Source of the DNA: Halorussus salinus
Lineage (GTDB): Archaea > Halobacteriota > Halobacteria > Halobacteriales > Haladaptataceae
Reading direction: 5' to 3'
Length of the DNA: 64,000 nucleotides
NCBI RefSeq assembly: GCF_004765815.2
Contig: NZ_ML974127.1
Location: 1,404,927-1,468,926, forward strand
The notes beneath the pieces were generated by a model that worked only from the letters and a program-made list of their open reading frames with translations, ran no database searches and was not told where the DNA came from. The position numbers were made by a program, and so were the translations under genes. Numbering within the stretch: the first letter of the stretch is position 1; each line of letters opens with the position of its first letter. Shown here piece by piece: positions 51,891-64,000 of the stretch.

Positions 51891-52595
51891 CTAGTCCGCG
51901 TACTCCGGCCGCTCGTCGTACGCGATGGGGTCGCGCACGCCGACGTTCTGGAACGCCTGCAACCGGAACGCGCAGGCGTCGCAGGTGCCGCAGGCCGGGG
52001 CCTCCTCACGGTAGCAACTCCACGTGTGTTCGTAGGGCACGCCCAACTCCACGCCGCGCTCGGCGATGTCGGTCTTCGACCACTCCACGAACGGCGCGCG
52101 CAGTTCGATGTCCGTCTCGTCTTTCGTCCCGGCGTCGATGACGTTCTGGAAGGCGTCGAAGAACGCCGGGCGGCAGTCGGGGTAGCCCGAGAAGTCCTCG
52201 CTGTGGGCACCGATGAACACCGCCTCGCAGTCGTTGGCCTCGGCGTAGGCGGTCGCCATCGCCAGCAGGTTCGCGTTCCGGAACGGGACGTAGGAGGTCG
52301 GGACCTCCTCGGAGTCCAAGTCGGCGTCGGCCACGTCCATCTCGTCGTCGGTGAGACTCGACCCGCCGATGGCCGCGAGGTGGCCCGTCTCCACGTGGAG
52401 GAAGTCCGCGGCGTCGAGGTCGTCGGCGAGTCGCCGGGCGCACTCGTACTCTCGGTCCTCGGTCTCCTGTCCGTAGGAGGTGTGCAGGAGATAACAGTCG
52501 TAGCCCTCCTCGGCGGCGAGGTAGGCCGCGGTGGCGCTGTCCATCCCGCCGGAGGCGAGGACGACCGCGCGTTTCTCGGCGTTCGTCTCGGTCAT
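51891..52595 (-). CDS. queC: 7-Cyano-7-deazaguanine synthase
   Basis: 234 residues from the ATG at 52595. PP-loop ASGGMDSATAAYL at 14-26 binds ATP; the zinc-binding CGTCDAC near residue 205 and the YVPFRNANLL segment are QueC hallmarks. Makes preQ0 from CDG, needed in archaea for archaeosine in tRNA. A longer in-frame start at 52673 adds 26 poorly conserved residues. Confidence 0.95.
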   Translation of the reverse strand: MTETNAEKRAVVLASGGMDSATAAYLAAEEGYDCYLLHTSYGQETEDREYECARRLADDLDAADFLHVETGHLAAIGGSSLTDDEMDVADADLDSEEVPTSYVPFRNANLLAMATAYAEANDCEAVFIGAHSEDFSGYPDCRPAFFDAFQNVIDAGTKDETDIELRAPFVEWSKTDIAERGVELGVPYEHTWSCYREEAPACGTCDACAFRLQAFQNVGVRDPIAYDERPEYAD

Positions 52596-52679
52596 GCCGG
52601 ACCACTGGACCGGCAGGTAGATGAGTCGTACGGTTCCGACCAGCGAGGAGCTATCGGTCTCCCGCGGTGTCACACCTCG

Positions 52680-52922
52680 TCAGTGTCGCGTGACGTGATA
52701 CAGCACGCCCCACACGAACGCGAGGCCCGACGCGATGAGGAGGCTCCCGGCCGTCTGAGGCGCGAGTTCGACGCCGGTCGTGGCGACCAGCAGGTCCCCG
52801 GCGAGGTTCGACACCTCCACGAACGAGGGCGTGTGGTTCCAGACGTACTTCGAGATGACCGTGGCGACTATCATGCTGGCGAACGCCGAGAAGGAGTGCG
52901 AGCCGCCCGATGTGAGTGCCAT
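52680..52922 (-). CDS. Small membrane protein of unknown function
   Basis: 80 residues with hydrophobic stretches at about 11-26 and 58-77. The N-terminus is Ser/Gly-rich (MALTSGGSHSFSAF). Set between queC and queE in the same direction but with normal spacing on both sides; no link to the queuine pathway is evident. Confidence 0.65.
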   Translation of the reverse strand: MALTSGGSHSFSAFASMIVATVISKYVWNHTPSFVEVSNLAGDLLVATTGVELAPQTAGSLLIASGLAFVWGVLYHVTRH

Positions 52923-53046
52923 GTGGTAGTTACGACTCCCTTATTATTTGTCCCTGTCACGCAGTCACTTAACTGTATTCAGACGCCACATCGATGGCGC
53001 GATTCGGACGCTCCTCGAAATTCGTCTTCCGAAGGTTTCTCCGCGC

Positions 53047-53871
53047 TCAAGTCTCGGGCGCGTCGTTCCAGAGGTTGACGTGGAGTCGCGGCGTGTACCG
53101 GAAACCGAACTCCTGTGCGAGTTCGGCGGCGACGGGCCGGGTCTCGGCGACGCGCTCTTTGGTCGCACCCTCCGGCATCAGGAGTACGTCGGTGTCCCGA
53201 ATCTCGACCGCGGCGGCGTCCCGGAGTCGGTCCAGCAGGTCCGTCGCCTCGGTCACGTCCGCGCGGTCGCTCACGACGAACTTGAGTTGGAAGTCGTACT
53301 CCTCCACGAGCGCCGCGAGCGCGTCGAGGTCGATACGACGCTCGTCGTGGCGCTCGGCCCACTCGTCGGCGTCGGTCGGTTTGCCGTCGGGTCTGGCGGT
53401 CTCGTCGGGCGTCGGCGTGCTGGACGCCAGTTTGGGACTCACGCTGGCGAGGTCGATGGGCGCGTCGCGGTGGATGGTCCCGTTGGTCTCGACGGTGGTG
53501 TGGTAGCCCCGCGCGTCTAACTCCTCCAAGAGCGCCACGGACGCGTCGTGCAGGAGCGGTTCCCCGCCGGTCAGGACCACGTGGTCGGCGTCGTAGGACT
53601 CGACCTCGGCGACTATCTCCTCGACGCTCATCGTCGCGTGGGTCGGCTCCCACGAGGTGTGATACGAGTCGCAGAACCAGCACCGGAGGTTGCACCCCGA
53701 GGAGCGGACGAAGACGCTCGGGACGCCCGCGAGTCGGCCCTCGCCCTGTAGGGACTCGAAGAGTTCGTTGATAGGGAGCGCGTCGCCCGAGTCGTCGCTG
53801 GCGTTCTCGGTCTCGCGCTCTCGGGTCGCCGATTCGCCCGCGTCGGCGTCCACGTCGCTGGTGACGGGCAT
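53047..53871 (-). CDS. queE: 7-Carboxy-7-deazaguanine synthase
   Basis: 274 residues, radical SAM enzyme. CX3CX2C is complete at Cys60, Cys64 and Cys67 (SSGCNLRCWFCDSYHT). Converts 6-carboxytetrahydropterin to CDG. An acidic ~30-residue N-terminal extension precedes the domain. 2 nt from the end of queD, so both are on one message. Confidence 0.95.
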   Translation of the reverse strand: MPVTSDVDADAGESATRERETENASDDSGDALPINELFESLQGEGRLAGVPSVFVRSSGCNLRCWFCDSYHTSWEPTHATMSVEEIVAEVESYDADHVVLTGGEPLLHDASVALLEELDARGYHTTVETNGTIHRDAPIDLASVSPKLASSTPTPDETARPDGKPTDADEWAERHDERRIDLDALAALVEEYDFQLKFVVSDRADVTEATDLLDRLRDAAAVEIRDTDVLLMPEGATKERVAETRPVAAELAQEFGFRYTPRLHVNLWNDAPET

Positions 53872-53873
53872 CG

Positions 53874-54326
53874 CTACAACTCGGCCCCGCCACAGAGTTC
53901 GGCGGTCTCGCTCACCTGCACGGCGACCTCCGAGACGTTGTCGGGCAACTCGTCGGCGAGGCGACGCTCCAGCACCGCGCTCATCACCTCGGCGGTCGGC
54001 GGGGCGTCGAGGACGACCAGCGCGTCACCGTCGCCGGACTCCTCGAAGGCCTCCACGAGCGGGTCGCCCTCCTCCAGCAGGAAGCGGTGGTCCCACTCGG
54101 AGATTATCGAGGTAATATCCCCCTTGTCCACGACCCAGCCCTCGTCGCGCAACTCGCCGACGACCTTGACCGTAATCTCGTAGTTGTGGCCGTGCGGTCG
54201 GCTACACTTGCCGTCGTGGTGCTGGATGCGATGCCCGCTTGAGATGCGGATGGGGCGGTCGCGCCCGACGTAGAGCGTGCGCTCGCCCGACTCCGCGAGA
54301 GGAGACCCGGAGATTCGTTGAGCCAT
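53874..54326 (-). CDS. queD: 6-Carboxytetrahydropterin synthase
   Basis: 150 residues. Zinc ligands are His32, His45 and His47 (GHRIQHHDGKCSRPHGHNYE); Cys41 is the catalytic thiol of QueD-type enzymes. Converts dihydroneopterin triphosphate into 6-carboxytetrahydropterin, the first step on the way to preQ0. Precedes queE. Confidence 0.94.
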   Translation of the reverse strand: MAQRISGSPLAESGERTLYVGRDRPIRISSGHRIQHHDGKCSRPHGHNYEITVKVVGELRDEGWVVDKGDITSIISEWDHRFLLEEGDPLVEAFEESGDGDALVVLDAPPTAEVMSAVLERRLADELPDNVSEVAVQVSETAELCGGAEL

Positions 54327-57409: not shown

Positions 57410-57847
57410 CGGGTCTCCTCAAGGCCCGGAGCGTCAACACTCTTTCCCACGTCCGAGACGATTCCGTCGGAACGTCGCCGAATCAGTTCGAGGAGTTCGG
57501 AACTGTAGTCTACAGATTCCTCGACTAAATACTTGTTAGCATACAGCACGAACCTACGTCAGAACGAGGTTAGATACGTTCGGCGAGAGGTAATTGTATC
57601 GGAAAAATAGTTAACAATGTACGCGGCATACGGGTCGTCGTGATATCTCGTCACGGAGTCCCACCGGAACGACCGAGGAGTCCGCGTCCGGAGACGAGCG
57701 TGAAGTTGCGGCACGCTCGGCGCTTCCGCGCGTCGTCCCGCGTTTTTCCTTACGTTCTATCCGACACAGTAGTGAATTCATCTCCAACTAAATGTTAAAG
57801 ACAGCTAGAAAAGATTTAACAACGTCTGTTGTGTATAATCTATCGCA
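57410..57847 (+). promoter_or_regulatory. Region upstream of the lanthipeptide precursor, with promoter
   Basis: 438 bp without a gene. TTTAAC at 57815-57820 is 28-33 nt before the precursor ATG, a good archaeal box A for a short leader. The preceding part has other AT-rich stretches (near 57600-57620 and 57770-57800). Nothing else recognisable. Confidence 0.5.
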
Positions 57848-57994
57848 ATGTCCGTGACACAGCATACCAGTGACGTGAAGGCAGAGATCGAAACCGAGTA
57901 CGCCCGCGACGGGTCCGACGCCCTCGACGATTCGTCGGAGCCGATGCGAGCCTGTAGCTGTTACACTCGCATCTGTTGCGACATCGACTCCTAA
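57848..57994 (+). CDS. Lanthipeptide precursor peptide (class II)
   Basis: 48 residues. The N-terminal ~33 residues form an acidic helical leader (MSVTQHTSDVKAEIETEYAR and on), ending SSEPMRA. The core is CSCYTRICCDIDS: Cys36, Cys38, Cys43, Cys44, with Ser37, Thr40 and Ser48 as possible dehydration sites. A LanM gene lies 2.8 kb away and an ABC transporter directly downstream. No Gly-Gly (or Gly-Ala) cleavage site precedes the core, so leader removal must differ from classic LanT peptidases. Too short for automatic gene calling in many pipelines. The assignment is inferred from the core and the neighbourhood. Confidence 0.82.
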   Translation: MSVTQHTSDVKAEIETEYARDGSDALDDSSEPMRACSCYTRICCDIDS

Positions 57995-58024
57995 ACGACC
58001 GCGACGACCGAGGTCGTTTTTTTT
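57993..58024 (+). terminator. Hairpin plus T-run after the precursor gene
   Basis: AAACGACC (57993-58000, starting within the stop codon) pairs exactly with GGTCGTTT (58012-58019); eight T follow at 58017-58024. An intrinsic-type terminator or attenuator that should give a short abundant precursor transcript while allowing some read-through into the ABC genes. Confidence 0.65.
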
Positions 58025-58116
58025 TCGGCCGTGCGTCTGTCCGCTACGCCCCTCGGCCACGGCGACGAGAGCTGACGACGATTCGGCGGTCTTCCGCCGG
58101 GAACTGACTCGATAGG

Positions 58117-59157
58117 ATGCGAGATACGACACCGGAACGAAGACAGAGACGCGACGACGAGGCCGAATCCGCGGAGAGCGACGCCGACCGAGTGCGACCG
58201 GGAGACCCGGCACTCGCCGTCGAGGGCCTCTCGAAGTCGTTCGGCTCCGGCGACGGCGCGGTCACGGCGGTAGACGACGTGTCCTTCTCGGTCGGTCGCG
58301 GGTCCATCGTCGGACTCCTCGGGCCGAACGGCGCGGGAAAGACGACCACCATCAAGTCGATACTCGGAATGGTCGTCCCCGACGCCGGGTCGGTCCGGAT
58401 AGAGGATGTGGACGTTCACGCCGACCCCCGCGCGGCCTACGAGCGCGCCGACGCGATGTTGGAGGGCGCGCGAAACGACTACTGGCGGCTGACCGTCCGC
58501 GAGAACTTGGAGTACTTCGCCAGCATCGGCGGCGAGGACCCCGCGGCGGTGCGAGACCGCCACGACGAGTTGCTCGACAGGCTCGACATCGCCGACAAGG
58601 CCGACGAACCGGTCCGGAACCTCTCGCGGGGGATGAAACAGAAGGTGTCGCTGGCCAGCGTCCTCGCCCGCGACGTGTCGGTCGTCTTCTTGGACGAACC
58701 GACGCTCGGACTCGACGTGGAGAGTTCCCTGCAACTGCGCGAGGAGCTAGGCCGACTCGTCCGCGAGCGCGACCTCACCGTCCTCCTCTCCAGTCACGAC
58801 ATGGACGTTATCGAGGCGGTCTGTGACCGCGTGTTGATTCTGAACGACGGTCGCATCGTGGCCGACGACTCGGTCGAGTCGCTCCTCTCGTCGGTCGAAC
58901 TGCAGGGCTTCCGCGTCGCGGTCGCCGACCTCTCGGACGCGACTCGGCGGTGGGTCCGCGACGAGTTCGAGGTCGAGGAGATGACGACTTCGGCCGACAG
59001 AACCCGGTTCACCGTCTCGACGGACCCGGCGGGGTTCTACCGACTCACGAACCGATTCGAGGCCGAGGAGGTCCGACTCGAAGACGTGCGCACGGTCGCG
59101 CCGGACCTCGAAGACGTGTTCATCGACGTGACGAACGACGGAGGCGGAGAACGATGA
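58117..59157 (+). CDS. ABC transporter ATPase
   Basis: 346 residues. Walker A GPNGAGKTT at 69-77, ABC signature LSRGMKQK at 169-176, Walker B VVFLDEPT at 189-196, and the H-loop in LLSSHDMDV. A ~35-residue acidic N-terminus precedes the domain, and ~100 residues follow it. No peptidase C39 domain is fused. It should power export of, or immunity to, the lanthipeptide together with the permease gene downstream, to which it is joined by two mini-cistrons. Confidence 0.93.
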   Translation: MRDTTPERRQRRDDEAESAESDADRVRPGDPALAVEGLSKSFGSGDGAVTAVDDVSFSVGRGSIVGLLGPNGAGKTTTIKSILGMVVPDAGSVRIEDVDVHADPRAAYERADAMLEGARNDYWRLTVRENLEYFASIGGEDPAAVRDRHDELLDRLDIADKADEPVRNLSRGMKQKVSLASVLARDVSVVFLDEPTLGLDVESSLQLREELGRLVRERDLTVLLSSHDMDVIEAVCDRVLILNDGRIVADDSVESLLSSVELQGFRVAVADLSDATRRWVRDEFEVEEMTTSADRTRFTVSTDPAGFYRLTNRFEAEEVRLEDVRTVAPDLEDVFIDVTNDGGGER

Positions 59158-59203
59158 CCAACGGGGGCGAACCATGACGAAGGAGAGAGGTGGAGAACGA
59201 TGA
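59154..59203 (+). other. Two overlapping mini-cistrons between ABC ATPase and permease
   Basis: The ATPase stop overlaps an ATG (59154) that encodes MTNGGEP and stops at 59177. That stop overlaps an ATG (59174) encoding MTKERGGER, which stops at 59203 in overlap with the permease start (59200). All three junctions are ATGA. GGAGAACGATGACC flanks the block at both ends, so it likely arose by a local tandem duplication. Confidence 0.6.
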
Positions 59204-60000
59204 CCGAGGAGACCAGCGCCGACCGGACCGGCGGGCATCGCCACCTCTGGCGCGCGGTACTCAAGCGGGAGGTCGTCCTGTTCGTCCGGTACCCGCTGAA
59301 CGCGCTCGGCGGGTTCGTGGTGTTCCTGTTCATGTTTCTGGTCATCTTCCTCGGCGGGCGGGCGTTCGCCGCCCCGGCGCTGTCCAGTTCCATCGAGGGC
59401 ATCGTCGTCGGCTTCTTCCTCTGGACGCTGGCGACGGCCTCCTACGTGGACATCTCCCAAGACATCGGCAAGGACGCCAAGTGGGGCACGCTCGAACGCC
59501 ACCTGATGACGCCGTTCGGGTTCGGCGTCGTGCTGGCGAGCAAGTCGGTCGCCAAACTCCTGCGCGAGGCGGTGATGGCCGTCGCGTTGCTCGTCGTCAT
59601 GCTCCTGTTGACCGGCGTCGAACTTCGACTCGACGTGCTGACGGTCGTCCCGATTCTCGTCGCGACGCTCGCGTCGGTGTTCGGCCTCGGGTTCGCGATG
59701 GGCGGACTGACGCTCCTGTACAAGCAAATCGGTAACTGGGCGGCGCTCCTCCAGTTCGGCTTCATCGCGCTGGTCGCCGCGCCCACGCTCGACCTCGGGT
59801 GGGCGAGGCTTCTCCCGCTCGCGCAGGGGAGCGCGCTCCTCCAGCGCGCGATGACCGACGGGACCCGCCTCTGGGAGTTCCCGGCGACGGACCTCGGTAT
59901 CCTGCTGGCCACGGGAATCGGGTATCTCCTCGCGGGCTACCTCGTCTTCCAGTTCGCACAGCGACGCGCCCGGCGGTTGGGCGTCCTCGGCCACTACTGA
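59200..60000 (+). CDS. ABC-2 type permease
   Basis: 266 residues with six hydrophobic segments; typical of the ABC-2 membrane proteins encoded downstream of ATPases. ATG at 59200 overlaps a mini-cistron stop. Pairs with the ATPase at 58117; probable roles are export of the modified peptide or self-protection. No further permease subunit is visible. Confidence 0.9.
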   Translation: MTEETSADRTGGHRHLWRAVLKREVVLFVRYPLNALGGFVVFLFMFLVIFLGGRAFAAPALSSSIEGIVVGFFLWTLATASYVDISQDIGKDAKWGTLERHLMTPFGFGVVLASKSVAKLLREAVMAVALLVVMLLLTGVELRLDVLTVVPILVATLASVFGLGFAMGGLTLLYKQIGNWAALLQFGFIALVAAPTLDLGWARLLPLAQGSALLQRAMTDGTRLWEFPATDLGILLATGIGYLLAGYLVFQFAQRRARRLGVLGHY

Positions 60001-60024: not shown

Positions 60025-60774
60025 ATGATTTCCGATGTCGCCGCCAAGTACGACGCCGTAGCGAGCGAGGGCCACGCCGACCGGATGGAAGCGTCCTACT
60101 GGCCGGTCGTCGAACAGGTCGTCGAGGAGATAGCCGTCGATGCCTCGACCACCGTCTTGGACCTCGGGACCGGCAACGGCTACGCCGCGAGATACTTCGC
60201 CTCGGAGGGGGCTACCGTCGTCGGCGTGGACGTGTCCGGCGAGATGGTTCGGGTCGCGCGCGAGGCGTCCGACGAGGAGGAAGCGCCCGGCGAGTCCGAA
60301 GCGGCCGACGAGTCGGCGACGACCGGCGAGACCGAGACGACCGACGACGGACTCCTCGACTTCGCCGTCGCGGACATGCACGACGTACCGATAGCCGACG
60401 ACAGCATCGACCTCGCGTTCTCGATGGACGTGCTTCCCTACTCGCGGGACCTCTCGACGCCGCTCGGCGAGGTCGCCCGCGTCCTCGCGCCCGACGGCGC
60501 GTTCCACTGCTGTGTCAACTACTACGCCGAGGCCGCCCGGTTCCAGCGCGAGGAGGCCCGCGGCGGTCTCGGGATGACGCTCCACTCGGCCGACGAGTAC
60601 GCCGACGCCTTCGCGGCGGCTGGCTTCCGAGGAGTCTCCCAAGACACCGTACCCAACACCGCGATAGAGATACCGCCCGAGGAGGCGTTCCCGACCGACG
60701 GCTGGGAGACCAGCGAGGACATGCGCCGGACGCTCCGGGAGTGGGGCACCCTGCTCACGGTCGGGGAGCTGTAG
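60025..60774 (+). CDS. Class I SAM-dependent methyltransferase
   Basis: 249 residues. SAM motif I VLDLGTGNGYAARYF at 44-58 with VVGVDVSGEM as motif II; ADMHDVPIADDSIDLAFS follows. An unusual ~30-residue acidic insertion (about 83-112, DEEEAPGESEAADES) lies after motif II. In this cluster it could methylate the lanthipeptide, but it could also be a general methyltransferase. It lies 24 nt after the permease and ends 19 nt before the convergent LanM gene. Confidence 0.88.
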   Translation: MISDVAAKYDAVASEGHADRMEASYWPVVEQVVEEIAVDASTTVLDLGTGNGYAARYFASEGATVVGVDVSGEMVRVAREASDEEEAPGESEAADESATTGETETTDDGLLDFAVADMHDVPIADDSIDLAFSMDVLPYSRDLSTPLGEVARVLAPDGAFHCCVNYYAEAARFQREEARGGLGMTLHSADEYADAFAAAGFRGVSQDTVPNTAIEIPPEEAFPTDGWETSEDMRRTLREWGTLLTVGEL

Positions 60775-60793: not shown

Positions 60794-63700
60794 CTACTCC
60801 AGCAACAGCACGCAGGGGAGACTCGGGTCCACCAGTCGGAGCAGTTCGTAGCCGATTCCGGCCTCGCCGCCGAACAGCGACGGGTTGTGCCAGTGGTCGG
60901 TCTGCCAGCGCGCCCGGAACTGCCTCTCGCGGTCGGCGCGCGCGACGCTCGCGGCCGCCAGTCGGCGCGCGTCACGGCGATACTCGGCGTCGCCGAGGTC
61001 GGTCCCCGCCCGGTTCAGGAACGCCACGCGCCCGAAGTTGCCACAGCAGAGGTGGTCGTTGCCCTGCAACGTCTCGGCCTCGACGCCCGCCAGCGCGTCG
61101 CGGGCCTCGTCGCGGAGGTCGCGGCGCTCCTCGGCGTCGAGACTCCCGCCGCGACCGTCCGCGGCCATCCCGAGGCGAGCGAGACCGATGCCGCTCCGGC
61201 CGTTGCACCACGCGTCGCCGAACTCGCCGTCGAACGCCGGGCGGAGGTCCCGCCAGTTTCGCTCGTCGGGCGAGTAGTGGCGGCGCTCGAACGCCAGACT
61301 CTCGACGCCCGCCTCGGCGAACCGGTCGTCCGAGACCGCTCCGAGCCGGACCAGCGCGAGCGCGATACCCGAGACGCCGTGTGAGAGACCCGTCAGCGGT
61401 TGGCCGTCCACCGCGGAGTGCCACGCGGGAACGCCGTCGGCGTCCGCGCGCTCGGCCAGCAGGTGGTCGCCCGCGGTCGTCGCGCGCTCCACGACCTCCG
61501 CGCTCCCCGTCTCGTCGTGGAGCGCGAGGAGACCGAGAATCGCGCCCGCGCTCCCGCCGAGCAGGTCGTACGCCCCGTCCGAGCGAATCTTCTCGGGCGT
61601 GAGCGCGCTCGCGGCCGTCTCGGCGACCCGGACGTACTCGTCGGCGTCGAGGAGGTCCCCGAGTTTGGTGAACCCGTAGACGACCGAGCCGATTCCCGTG
61701 ACGCCCAGCGGGAGGTCGGCGACGCTCTCCGCGGAGACGGCGTCGGCCACCGGGTCGGCGACCTCCTCGGCGAACTCGGCGAATCGCGGTTCGTCGGCGG
61801 TGCGGGCCAGCGCGGCGGCGAACAGCGCGACGCCGAGTCGCCCCCGGTAGAGGTCGTCGGGGAGCGTATCGACCGAGACGCCCTCGGGTCGGTTCTCCCG
61901 GACGAGCCACGTCGGGTCGCCGTCTCGGCCCTCGACCGCGGCGTCCACGAGTCGGTCGTAGCAGTCTCTCGCCGCGCGCTCGAACGTCGCGTCGTCGGGG
62001 TCCAGTGCGGTCTCGTCCGGGGTCGGTTCCGTGGCACGCCCGCCGTGCGAGCGCGTCTCCGGGTCGAAGGCGTAGCGGACGTACTCGCGCTGTTCGGCCA
62101 AGTCCTCGTCGCCCAGTCCACGGATTCGTTCCCGCATCGACTCGTATGGCGTTCGGTCGAACAACTCCTCGACGCACCGCTCGCCGTCCCAGTAGAGGGC
62201 GGTGTCGTCGGTGGACGCCCCGAACCGCGGCACGTCGAGGCGGGCCAGCGCGTCGAGTTCGGCCCGGTAGAGCGGTTCGTAGTCGAATCCGGTGTCGGCG
62301 TCCGCGAACAGCGTCAGGAGGGCTTCGGACTTACAGCCGAACTGGAGTCCGGTCCGGAGGTACTCGGGCGTCCGGAGCGACTCCAACACCGCCGCGTACT
62401 TGGCCGTCTCGCGGTAGACGACCCGGACCTCGCAGTCCTCGAACGCCGAGAGCGGGCCGTCGTCGGCCAGCAGGTCGTCGCGCCGGGATTCGAGGAGCCG
62501 ATACCCCTCCTCGAACCCCGCCGCGATTCGGTCGGCGTGGTCGGCCGGGCGGGTCTCGTCGCCCCGGAGTTCGGGGAGGTTCGAGACGCTCCCCTCGGCG
62601 ACGCGCCGGTAGTCCATCTCCATCAGGTCGGTGTTCACCTCGCTGAACACCGGCTCCCGGACACCGCCGGTCTCGTCGTCCACGACCGCGAACGCGCCGG
62701 TGCCGACGTTCGTCGGGCCGCCGTCGCCCGTCGCGTCACTCTCGTCGCCGGTCGCGCCATCGTCGCCGCTCGTTCCGCCATCGCCGCCTGCCGAGCCGCC
62801 CCCGCTTGCTGCACCGTCCCCGCCTGCCTCACCGGCCCCGGCGGCGTCGGTGGTCGGTATCAGCCCCGTCCCGACGACCGACTCGTCGGCGACCCGCTTG
62901 ACGGCCCGGTCCATGTGGGGCGCTCGCTCGGGCGGTATCTCGGGTTCCGCCAGCGTCTCGGCGTCCACGACGACCGGCTGGTCGCCCGCCGCGACCACGT
63001 TGTCGGCGTGGCCGTCGCCGAACCGGAGCGCGTACAGCATCGCTATCAGCACGCCCGCCCGCCGGTAGAACCGCTCGACCTCCTCGGCGGTCGCACACTC
63101 GTCGGTTTCGGCCCACTCCAGCCAGCCGTACTCCTCGCGGGCGAGACAGTCGAGCGTCCGGAGTTCGGGGAGGCCCGACGAGTTCGCGCTCGACTGTTCT
63201 GTTCTCGACTGGTCGTTCACCCACGCGAGAAGGTCGTAGAACGCGCTCGTGACCCGCATCTCTCGGGGTTTGTACGCGAGCGTGACCCCGGAGGAGAACC
63301 CGACGCGGAGCGAGGCCCGGCCGCCCTCGTGGTAGTCGCCCACCACGTCGATTCGGGTCACGTCGCCCAACCCCTCGTCGCCGCCCAACCGCTCGTCGTC
63401 GCCCGAGCCTTCGCCGTCGTCCCCGAACCGCTCGGCGAGTTCGGGGGCGTCACGGGCGAGTCGTCCGCAGAACTCCTCGACGGTCGCGACCCACTGGTCG
63501 AGTATCGACGCCAGCAGTCGCGACAGAAACGCGTACTCCACGAAGAACTCCCGGAGGCCGTCGTCCAGCGCGCCCGCGACGAACGCCTCGTAGTAGTTGC
63601 GGGGGTCGTCCGGCTCCGGCGGGTCGTCGGCCAGCGCCAACTCCCGGTCGTGGTGGGCGACGAACGTCTTGAACTCCACGAACAGCGGATGGGCGACGAC

Positions 63701-64000
63701 GTGTTCGACTCGCTCGGCCAGCGCGACCTCGAAGTCCGCGAGCGCCGCGTCGGTCAGCGTCTCCTCGACAGCCTCGTCGTCCAACCGCGAGCGAGCGGCG
63801 GCGACGATTGCCCCGACGACCTCCTCGAACGGGAGTTCGCGCTCCGAGTCGGGACTCTCGACCGAGGAGGGCGCGACTTCCGCGACGAACGACGACACCT
63901 CCTCGACGGTCGCCACCCAGTCGGGAAGCGGTTCGTCGTCCGGCCACGCGTTCGACTGTAGGCGCTCGCGGCAGTCGTCTCGCGACAGTCCGAGCGCGTC
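60794..64000 (-). CDS. lanM: Class II lanthipeptide synthetase LanM (5' end outside window)
   Basis: At least 1068 residues; the frame stays open to the right edge, and upstream of the GTG at 63916 the residues DALGLSRDDCRERLQ and LPDWVAT still resemble the LanM N-terminus, so the start lies outside. Dehydratase part: kinase-like GDGHADNVVAAG near 62999-63016 and VVDAETL after it. Cyclase part: zinc ligands in WCNGRSGIGLARLG (Cys codon 61205-61207) and HLCCGNFG (Cys pair 61043-61048), that is the CCG motif of ProcM-like enzymes. A Gly/Ala/Ser/Asp-rich insertion of ~55 residues lies at 62690-62870. Converts Ser/Thr to dehydro residues and adds Cys thiols to form (methyl)lanthionine. Confidence 0.93.
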   Translation of the reverse strand, partial: DALGLSRDDCRERLQSNAWPDDEPLPDWVATVEEVSSFVAEVAPSSVESPDSERELPFEEVVGAIVAAARSRLDDEAVEETLTDAALADFEVALAERVEHVVAHPLFVEFKTFVAHHDRELALADDPPEPDDPRNYYEAFVAGALDDGLREFFVEYAFLSRLLASILDQWVATVEEFCGRLARDAPELAERFGDDGEGSGDDERLGGDEGLGDVTRIDVVGDYHEGGRASLRVGFSSGVTLAYKPREMRVTSAFYDLLAWVNDQSRTEQSSANSSGLPELRTLDCLAREEYGWLEWAETDECATAEEVERFYRRAGVLIAMLYALRFGDGHADNVVAAGDQPVVVDAETLAEPEIPPERAPHMDRAVKRVADESVVGTGLIPTTDAAGAGEAGGDGAASGGGSAGGDGGTSGDDGATGDESDATGDGGPTNVGTGAFAVVDDETGGVREPVFSEVNTDLMEMDYRRVAEGSVSNLPELRGDETRPADHADRIAAGFEEGYRLLESRRDDLLADDGPLSAFEDCEVRVVYRETAKYAAVLESLRTPEYLRTGLQFGCKSEALLTLFADADTGFDYEPLYRAELDALARLDVPRFGASTDDTALYWDGERCVEELFDRTPYESMRERIRGLGDEDLAEQREYVRYAFDPETRSHGGRATEPTPDETALDPDDATFERAARDCYDRLVDAAVEGRDGDPTWLVRENRPEGVSVDTLPDDLYRGRLGVALFAAALARTADEPRFAEFAEEVADPVADAVSAESVADLPLGVTGIGSVVYGFTKLGDLLDADEYVRVAETAASALTPEKIRSDGAYDLLGGSAGAILGLLALHDETGSAEVVERATTAGDHLLAERADADGVPAWHSAVDGQPLTGLSHGVSGIALALVRLGAVSDDRFAEAGVESLAFERRHYSPDERNWRDLRPAFDGEFGDAWCNGRSGIGLARLGMAADGRGGSLDAEERRDLRDEARDALAGVEAETLQGNDHLCCGNFGRVAFLNRAGTDLGDAEYRRDARRLAAASVARADRERQFRARWQTDHWHNPSLFGGEAGIGYELLRLVDPSLPCVLLLE

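Follow-up and report, generated by a model that had tools for sequence, protein, structure and literature searches.

The 48-residue precursor of archalan gamma in Halorussus salinus, a lanthipeptide whose leader lacks a double-glycine site

How is a peptide of 48 residues, with cysteines crowded at its C-terminus and no Gly-Gly site ahead of them, turned into a ring-bearing product, and which protease sets that product free? The question is raised by a small open reading frame (ORF) of Halorussus salinus, found in a stretch of 64,000 nucleotides (contig NZ_ML974127.1; the window hereafter) beside genes for an ABC transporter, a methyltransferase and a LanM enzyme (Table 1). Read directly, the ORF starts with ATG at 57848, stops with TAA at 57992-57994 and translates as MSVTQHTSDVKAEIETEYARDGSDALDDSSEPMRA followed by CSCYTRICCDIDS; residues A35, C36, S37, C38, T40, C43, C44 and S48 bear the same numbers as in our preliminary description of this DNA. 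Short, and with both Ser/Thr and Cys in its C-terminal core, it has the make-up of a class II lanthipeptide precursor. The TTTAA upstream, 29-33 bases 5' of the ATG, would fit a haloarchaeal transcript with no 5' leader or nearly none. The hairpin that follows the ORF has a folding z-score of -0.48, its energy alone not exceeding that of shuffled sequences.

Table 1. Features of the archalan gamma locus, in window coordinates.
Feature	Position	Strand	Description
TTTAA, TATA-box-like	57815..57819	+	5' of the ATG; from sequence only
Archalan gamma precursor gene	57848..57994	+	48 aa plus stop; core identical to the published one
Leader peptide	57848..57952	+	residues 1-35, with VKAEIETEYARD motif; removed after Ala35 (core start from PMC12144867)
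Core CSCYTRICCDIDS	57953..57991	+	residues 36-48; rings, disulfide and methyl as published (PMC12144867)
Terminator-like hairpin, then T-run	57993..58025	+	between precursor and ABC genes; pattern scan
ABC transporter ATPase	58117..59157	+	346 aa; PF00005, E 5.5e-30
ABC-2 type permease	59200..60000	+	266 aa; PF01061, E 2.1e-5, 24.6 bits, under the 26.9 cut-off
SAM-dependent methyltransferase	60025..60774	+	249 aa; PF08241, E 1.8e-20
LanM	60794..64000	-	1129 aa in full, first 61 codons past the window edge; convergent

Letter for letter, the last 13 residues of the ORF equal the core of archalan gamma (PMC12144867). This class II lanthipeptide comes from H. salinus YJ-37-H; the product was isolated, and its structure was published in 2025. 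The ORF is the archalan gamma precursor, an object already known; the two share the core and the LanM cluster, and at the level of the core we found no difference from the published account. The genome also encodes the cores of archalan beta, sallan and archalan alpha near other LanM genes, and holds six LanM loci (the gamma LanM accounts for two of the seven PF13575 matches), the number of lanthipeptide clusters reported for YJ-37-H (PMC10105419). Because four published cores and the six LanM loci match, it belongs to this strain or to one indistinguishable from it at these loci.

A chance or silent frame, with the true precursor elsewhere, is hardly conceivable. The ORF has just 48 codons and no match in Pfam or NCBIfam, as such a frame might; yet the published product carries exactly this core (PMC12144867) and the leader is similar to those of five other precursors, and on these grounds we rejected the idea. 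Nor did we see a second precursor past the right edge of the window, the case that the preliminary description had named as refuting its view, in a locus (L002) that reaches about 12.9 kb beyond that edge; the single further ORF of L002 to pass our precursor filter encodes a 63-aa zinc-ribbon-like protein. The whole precursor was matched in only one of 18 genomes of the host's genus, namely its own, which counts against wide conservation.

The published structure shows how the four cysteines are used. In core numbering, thioethers join Ser2 to Cys3 and Thr5 to Cys9, Cys1 and Cys8 form a disulfide and Cys1 carries one methyl, a structure worked out by partial desulfurisation and by reduction with DTT (PMC12144867); (methyl)lanthionine is thus published for the product of this very core. 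Translated to the precursor, the rings are Ser37-Cys38 and Thr40-Cys44, the disulfide is Cys36-Cys43, the methyl sits on Cys36 and the leader is cut off after Ala35. We compute a monoisotopic mass of 1456.52 for the peptide so modified. The sequence-based expectation of at most two thioether rings agrees with this structure. It had, however, placed Ser37 and Thr40 N-terminal to Cys43 and Cys44 only, whereas Ser37 also precedes Cys38 and closes a ring with its neighbour; an oxidised pair does exist as surmised, but it is Cys36-Cys43 rather than Cys36-Cys38 (PMC12144867). As a whole, that earlier reading was right about the two rings, an oxidised pair and the missing glycine site, wrong about the cysteine pairing, and did not foresee the methyl on Cys1. 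Crude extract of Haloferax volcanii expressing the aln-gamma cluster was anti-haloarchaeal, and the authors caution generally that products of heterologous hosts need confirming in native strains (PMC12144867). Archalan gamma, with its adjacent Ser-Cys ring and its disulfide, is among the few lanthipeptides of archaea whose structure has been mapped.

The enzyme needed for such rings is encoded in the cluster. The full LanM gene (L002:3821-7210) scores 692 bits against TIGR03897, for which the cut-off is 304, and matches both PF13575 and PF05147, that is, a dehydratase fused to a LanC-like cyclase, as in the bacterial class II LicM2 and CylM systems. Its dehydratase motifs GDYH (282), AYKP (303), GDGHADN (389) and VVVDAET (404) align with those of LicM2 and CylM, and its cyclase part contains WCNG (992) and CCGN (1046). 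The residues that we take to be catalytic or zinc ligands are kept (WC and CC are present), the His of the CHG motif being Cys here, so that CCG stands where LicM2 has CHG. Bacterial class II systems usually combine a double-glycine leader with a C39 peptidase-ABC exporter. In contrast, the archalan gamma cluster has no C39 peptidase.

This absence bears on how the leader is removed. Neither GG nor GA occurs anywhere in the precursor, just as the preliminary description had stated for the stretch before the core; a single GS at positions 22-23 lies within the leader, 12 residues before the core, and the boundary itself is Arg-Ala followed by Cys. The 346-aa ATPase matched only ABC_tran/AAA domains, bearing out that no peptidase is fused to it, and the proteins scanned in the cluster and its flanks include no peptidase. 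With neither a double-glycine site nor a fused peptidase, the view that another protease must cut holds. The possibility that the genome encodes a C39 exporter at another site was rejected: C39 matches numbered zero in the genome itself and zero in 392 sampled genomes of the host's order, while the same search gave matches in 8 of 14 control genomes, including that of the archaeon Methanosarcina acetivorans.

Archalan gamma is not peculiar in this respect, contrary to what had been assumed at first. Among 22 haloarchaeal precursors, gamma included, only one (L071) has GG, GA or GS within 10 residues before the first Cys, which served as a stand-in for the core start, the actual start being published for four of the 22, all from this genome. 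Eight ORFs judged unusable were left out of the 22 (L002 7568, L011 1144, L013 1195, L066 3611, L073 1305 and 14327, L075 6936 and L075 166, the last precursor-like but running off its locus), and L070 gave none. Because C39 is absent from all 392 genomes and the site occurs in one precursor of 22, a missing Gly-Gly site is the rule among haloarchaeal lanthipeptides. No paper among the matches listed paired 'C39' with 'haloarchaea', and we do not claim the absence of C39 as unpublished. We tentatively propose, at slightly less than even confidence, that the whole group of haloarchaeal class II lanthipeptides lacks the C39/double-glycine route and that a housekeeping cytosolic protease cuts the leader before N-methylation and export. 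If so, leader cleavage would have been handed over from the cluster to the host.

Since alignment of the cores with MAFFT was not meaningful, leaders alone were used to relate the precursors. The gamma leader resembled those of L065, L066, L068, L010 (beta) and L067, its scores being reached by 0, 0, 1, 2 and 2 of 1000 shuffles, respectively; in the remaining 16 of 21 comparisons 26-975 of 1000 shuffles did as well, and these are weak or chance similarities. The signal is thus confined to five precursors. Against the 21 other precursors the gamma core scored at chance level, except for L068 (6 of 1000 shuffles), which we do not trust on 13 residues. Because the gamma leader resembles those of five precursors beside related LanM genes, leaders are conserved between related clusters, whereas cores vary. 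At the DNA level a C-x-C-x-T-x-x-C-C core pattern matched 99 of 392 genomes, a reversed-pattern control also matching widely; among 20 loci examined (L045-L064), only the genome's own L053 combined a short ORF with an acidic leader of the lanthipeptide type.

The order of maturation and the roles of the methyltransferase and the ABC pair are what we infer; the rings, the disulfide, the methyl on Cys1 and the core start are those published. LanM would bind the acidic leader, dehydrate Ser37 and Thr40 and close Ser37-Cys38 and Thr40-Cys44, and the leftover Cys36 and Cys43 would oxidise to the disulfide. Residues 1-35 would be removed by a protease whose gene lies outside the cluster, the cluster methyltransferase would then N-methylate Cys36, and the ABC-2 pair would export the peptide, protect the cell, or both. 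Taken together, this account of the ORF as archalan gamma precursor is in our judgement very probably correct. The main text of the paper gives the residue that is methylated; within it, the alpha-amine is the most likely site, because in Cys1 the disulfide takes up the thiol and a peptide bond the carboxyl. That amine becomes free only once the leader is gone, and N-methylation would therefore follow the cut. Because methylation would follow leader removal and, by eye, no signal peptide is evident in the methyltransferase, the cut is probably cytosolic. Together with the absence of C39 from the 392 genomes, the order of cut, methylation and export would narrow the search for the protease to cytosolic enzymes.

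This order makes a cytosolic protease more likely than secreted subtilases. That a halolysin cuts the leader outside the cell would parallel another haloarchaeal antimicrobial precursor, HFX_0892 of Haloferax mediterranei, activated by the halolysin HlyR4 (PMC12893001), and the search for an unlinked subtilase suggested at the outset did return 16 PF00082 (S8 family) matches in the genome, candidates for such an enzyme if they are secreted. None of the 16, however, was found linked to the gamma cluster, and an N-terminal methyl, if added by a cytosolic SAM enzyme, needs a free N-terminus before export; we regard extracellular cleavage as unlikely. A lysyl- or arginyl-type cut near residues 33-36 had also been suggested: the published cut falls in this interval, after Ala35 with Arg34 one residue upstream, but not directly after Lys or Arg. 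The residue just before the core is A (gamma), A (beta), D (alpha) and V (sallan) in those precursors of this genome for which a core is published, four in all; this variety tells against a single leader peptidase of strict sequence specificity and in favour of a general protease combined with trimming. The leader might first be nicked by an endoprotease, after Arg34 for instance or at a site farther upstream, with aminopeptidases then trimming until the ring-bearing N-terminus stops them. The varying residue before the core speaks for such a two-step course, and the authors explain related products by the action of generic peptidases and of unknown aminopeptidases, yet their main text describes no trimming intermediates of archalan gamma (PMC12144867). 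We consider it a serious possibility that falls a little short of probable; it would refine, not oppose, the account given above.

The cluster methyltransferase likely N-methylates Cys1, given its gene in the cluster, the only methyltransferase seen there, and the published methyl; a host enzyme could instead be responsible. At the cut-offs used, no homologue of it turned up in the genome's other five LanM loci, nor in the 12 LanM loci compared from other genomes. The aln-beta cluster is reported to have a methyltransferase gene (PMC10105419), and a methyltransferase-domain protein near the L012 LanM (L012:301-1059) is not a tblastn match to that of the gamma cluster. Homologues of the ABC pair lie at two LanM loci of the same genome, sal (ATPase 57% and permease 52% identical) and L012 (46% and 40%); in other genomes they occur close to the LanM genes of L070, L074 and L075.

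Archalan alpha, archalan beta and sallan share with gamma short acidic precursors, a LanM and the lack of a double-glycine site at the core, but differ in core sequence and ring pattern (PMC10105419, PMC12144867); alpha and sallan are reported with reverse rings (Cys before Ser/Thr), as against the adjacent Ser-Cys ring and disulfide of gamma. The SalA gene (L014:9578-9760; G000:C6) ends ...SAVCTRYSFDYASKN, so besides its leader sallan must lose C-terminal residues. The extra D of sallan A1 is N-terminal according to the text of the paper but fits the C-terminus of the gene sequence. Adjoining the sixth LanM of the genome is a 44-aa precursor-like ORF, MSSDSLKDQIEAAYEQD... (L012:9694-9828; G000:C4), and this LanM is, by tblastn score, the nearest to gamma LanM within the genome, at 40% identity. 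Two related LanM loci of other genomes, L074 (G023:C2) and L075 (G008:C15), each list four precursor-like ORFs with Cys-rich cores, one of those in L075 being cut by the locus end.

To the right of the window, past LanM, L002:10050-19680 resembles a restriction or defence island adjoining the lanthipeptide cluster: it encodes a PLD/helicase protein, two proteins with a NucS_C domain and a DNA methylase of the Eco57I type. A few kb to the left of the cluster, minus-strand genes at 51891-54326 give matches to QueC, to a PTPS-family protein and to a radical SAM protein, a combination that recalls 7-deazaguanine (archaeosine-type) biosynthesis.
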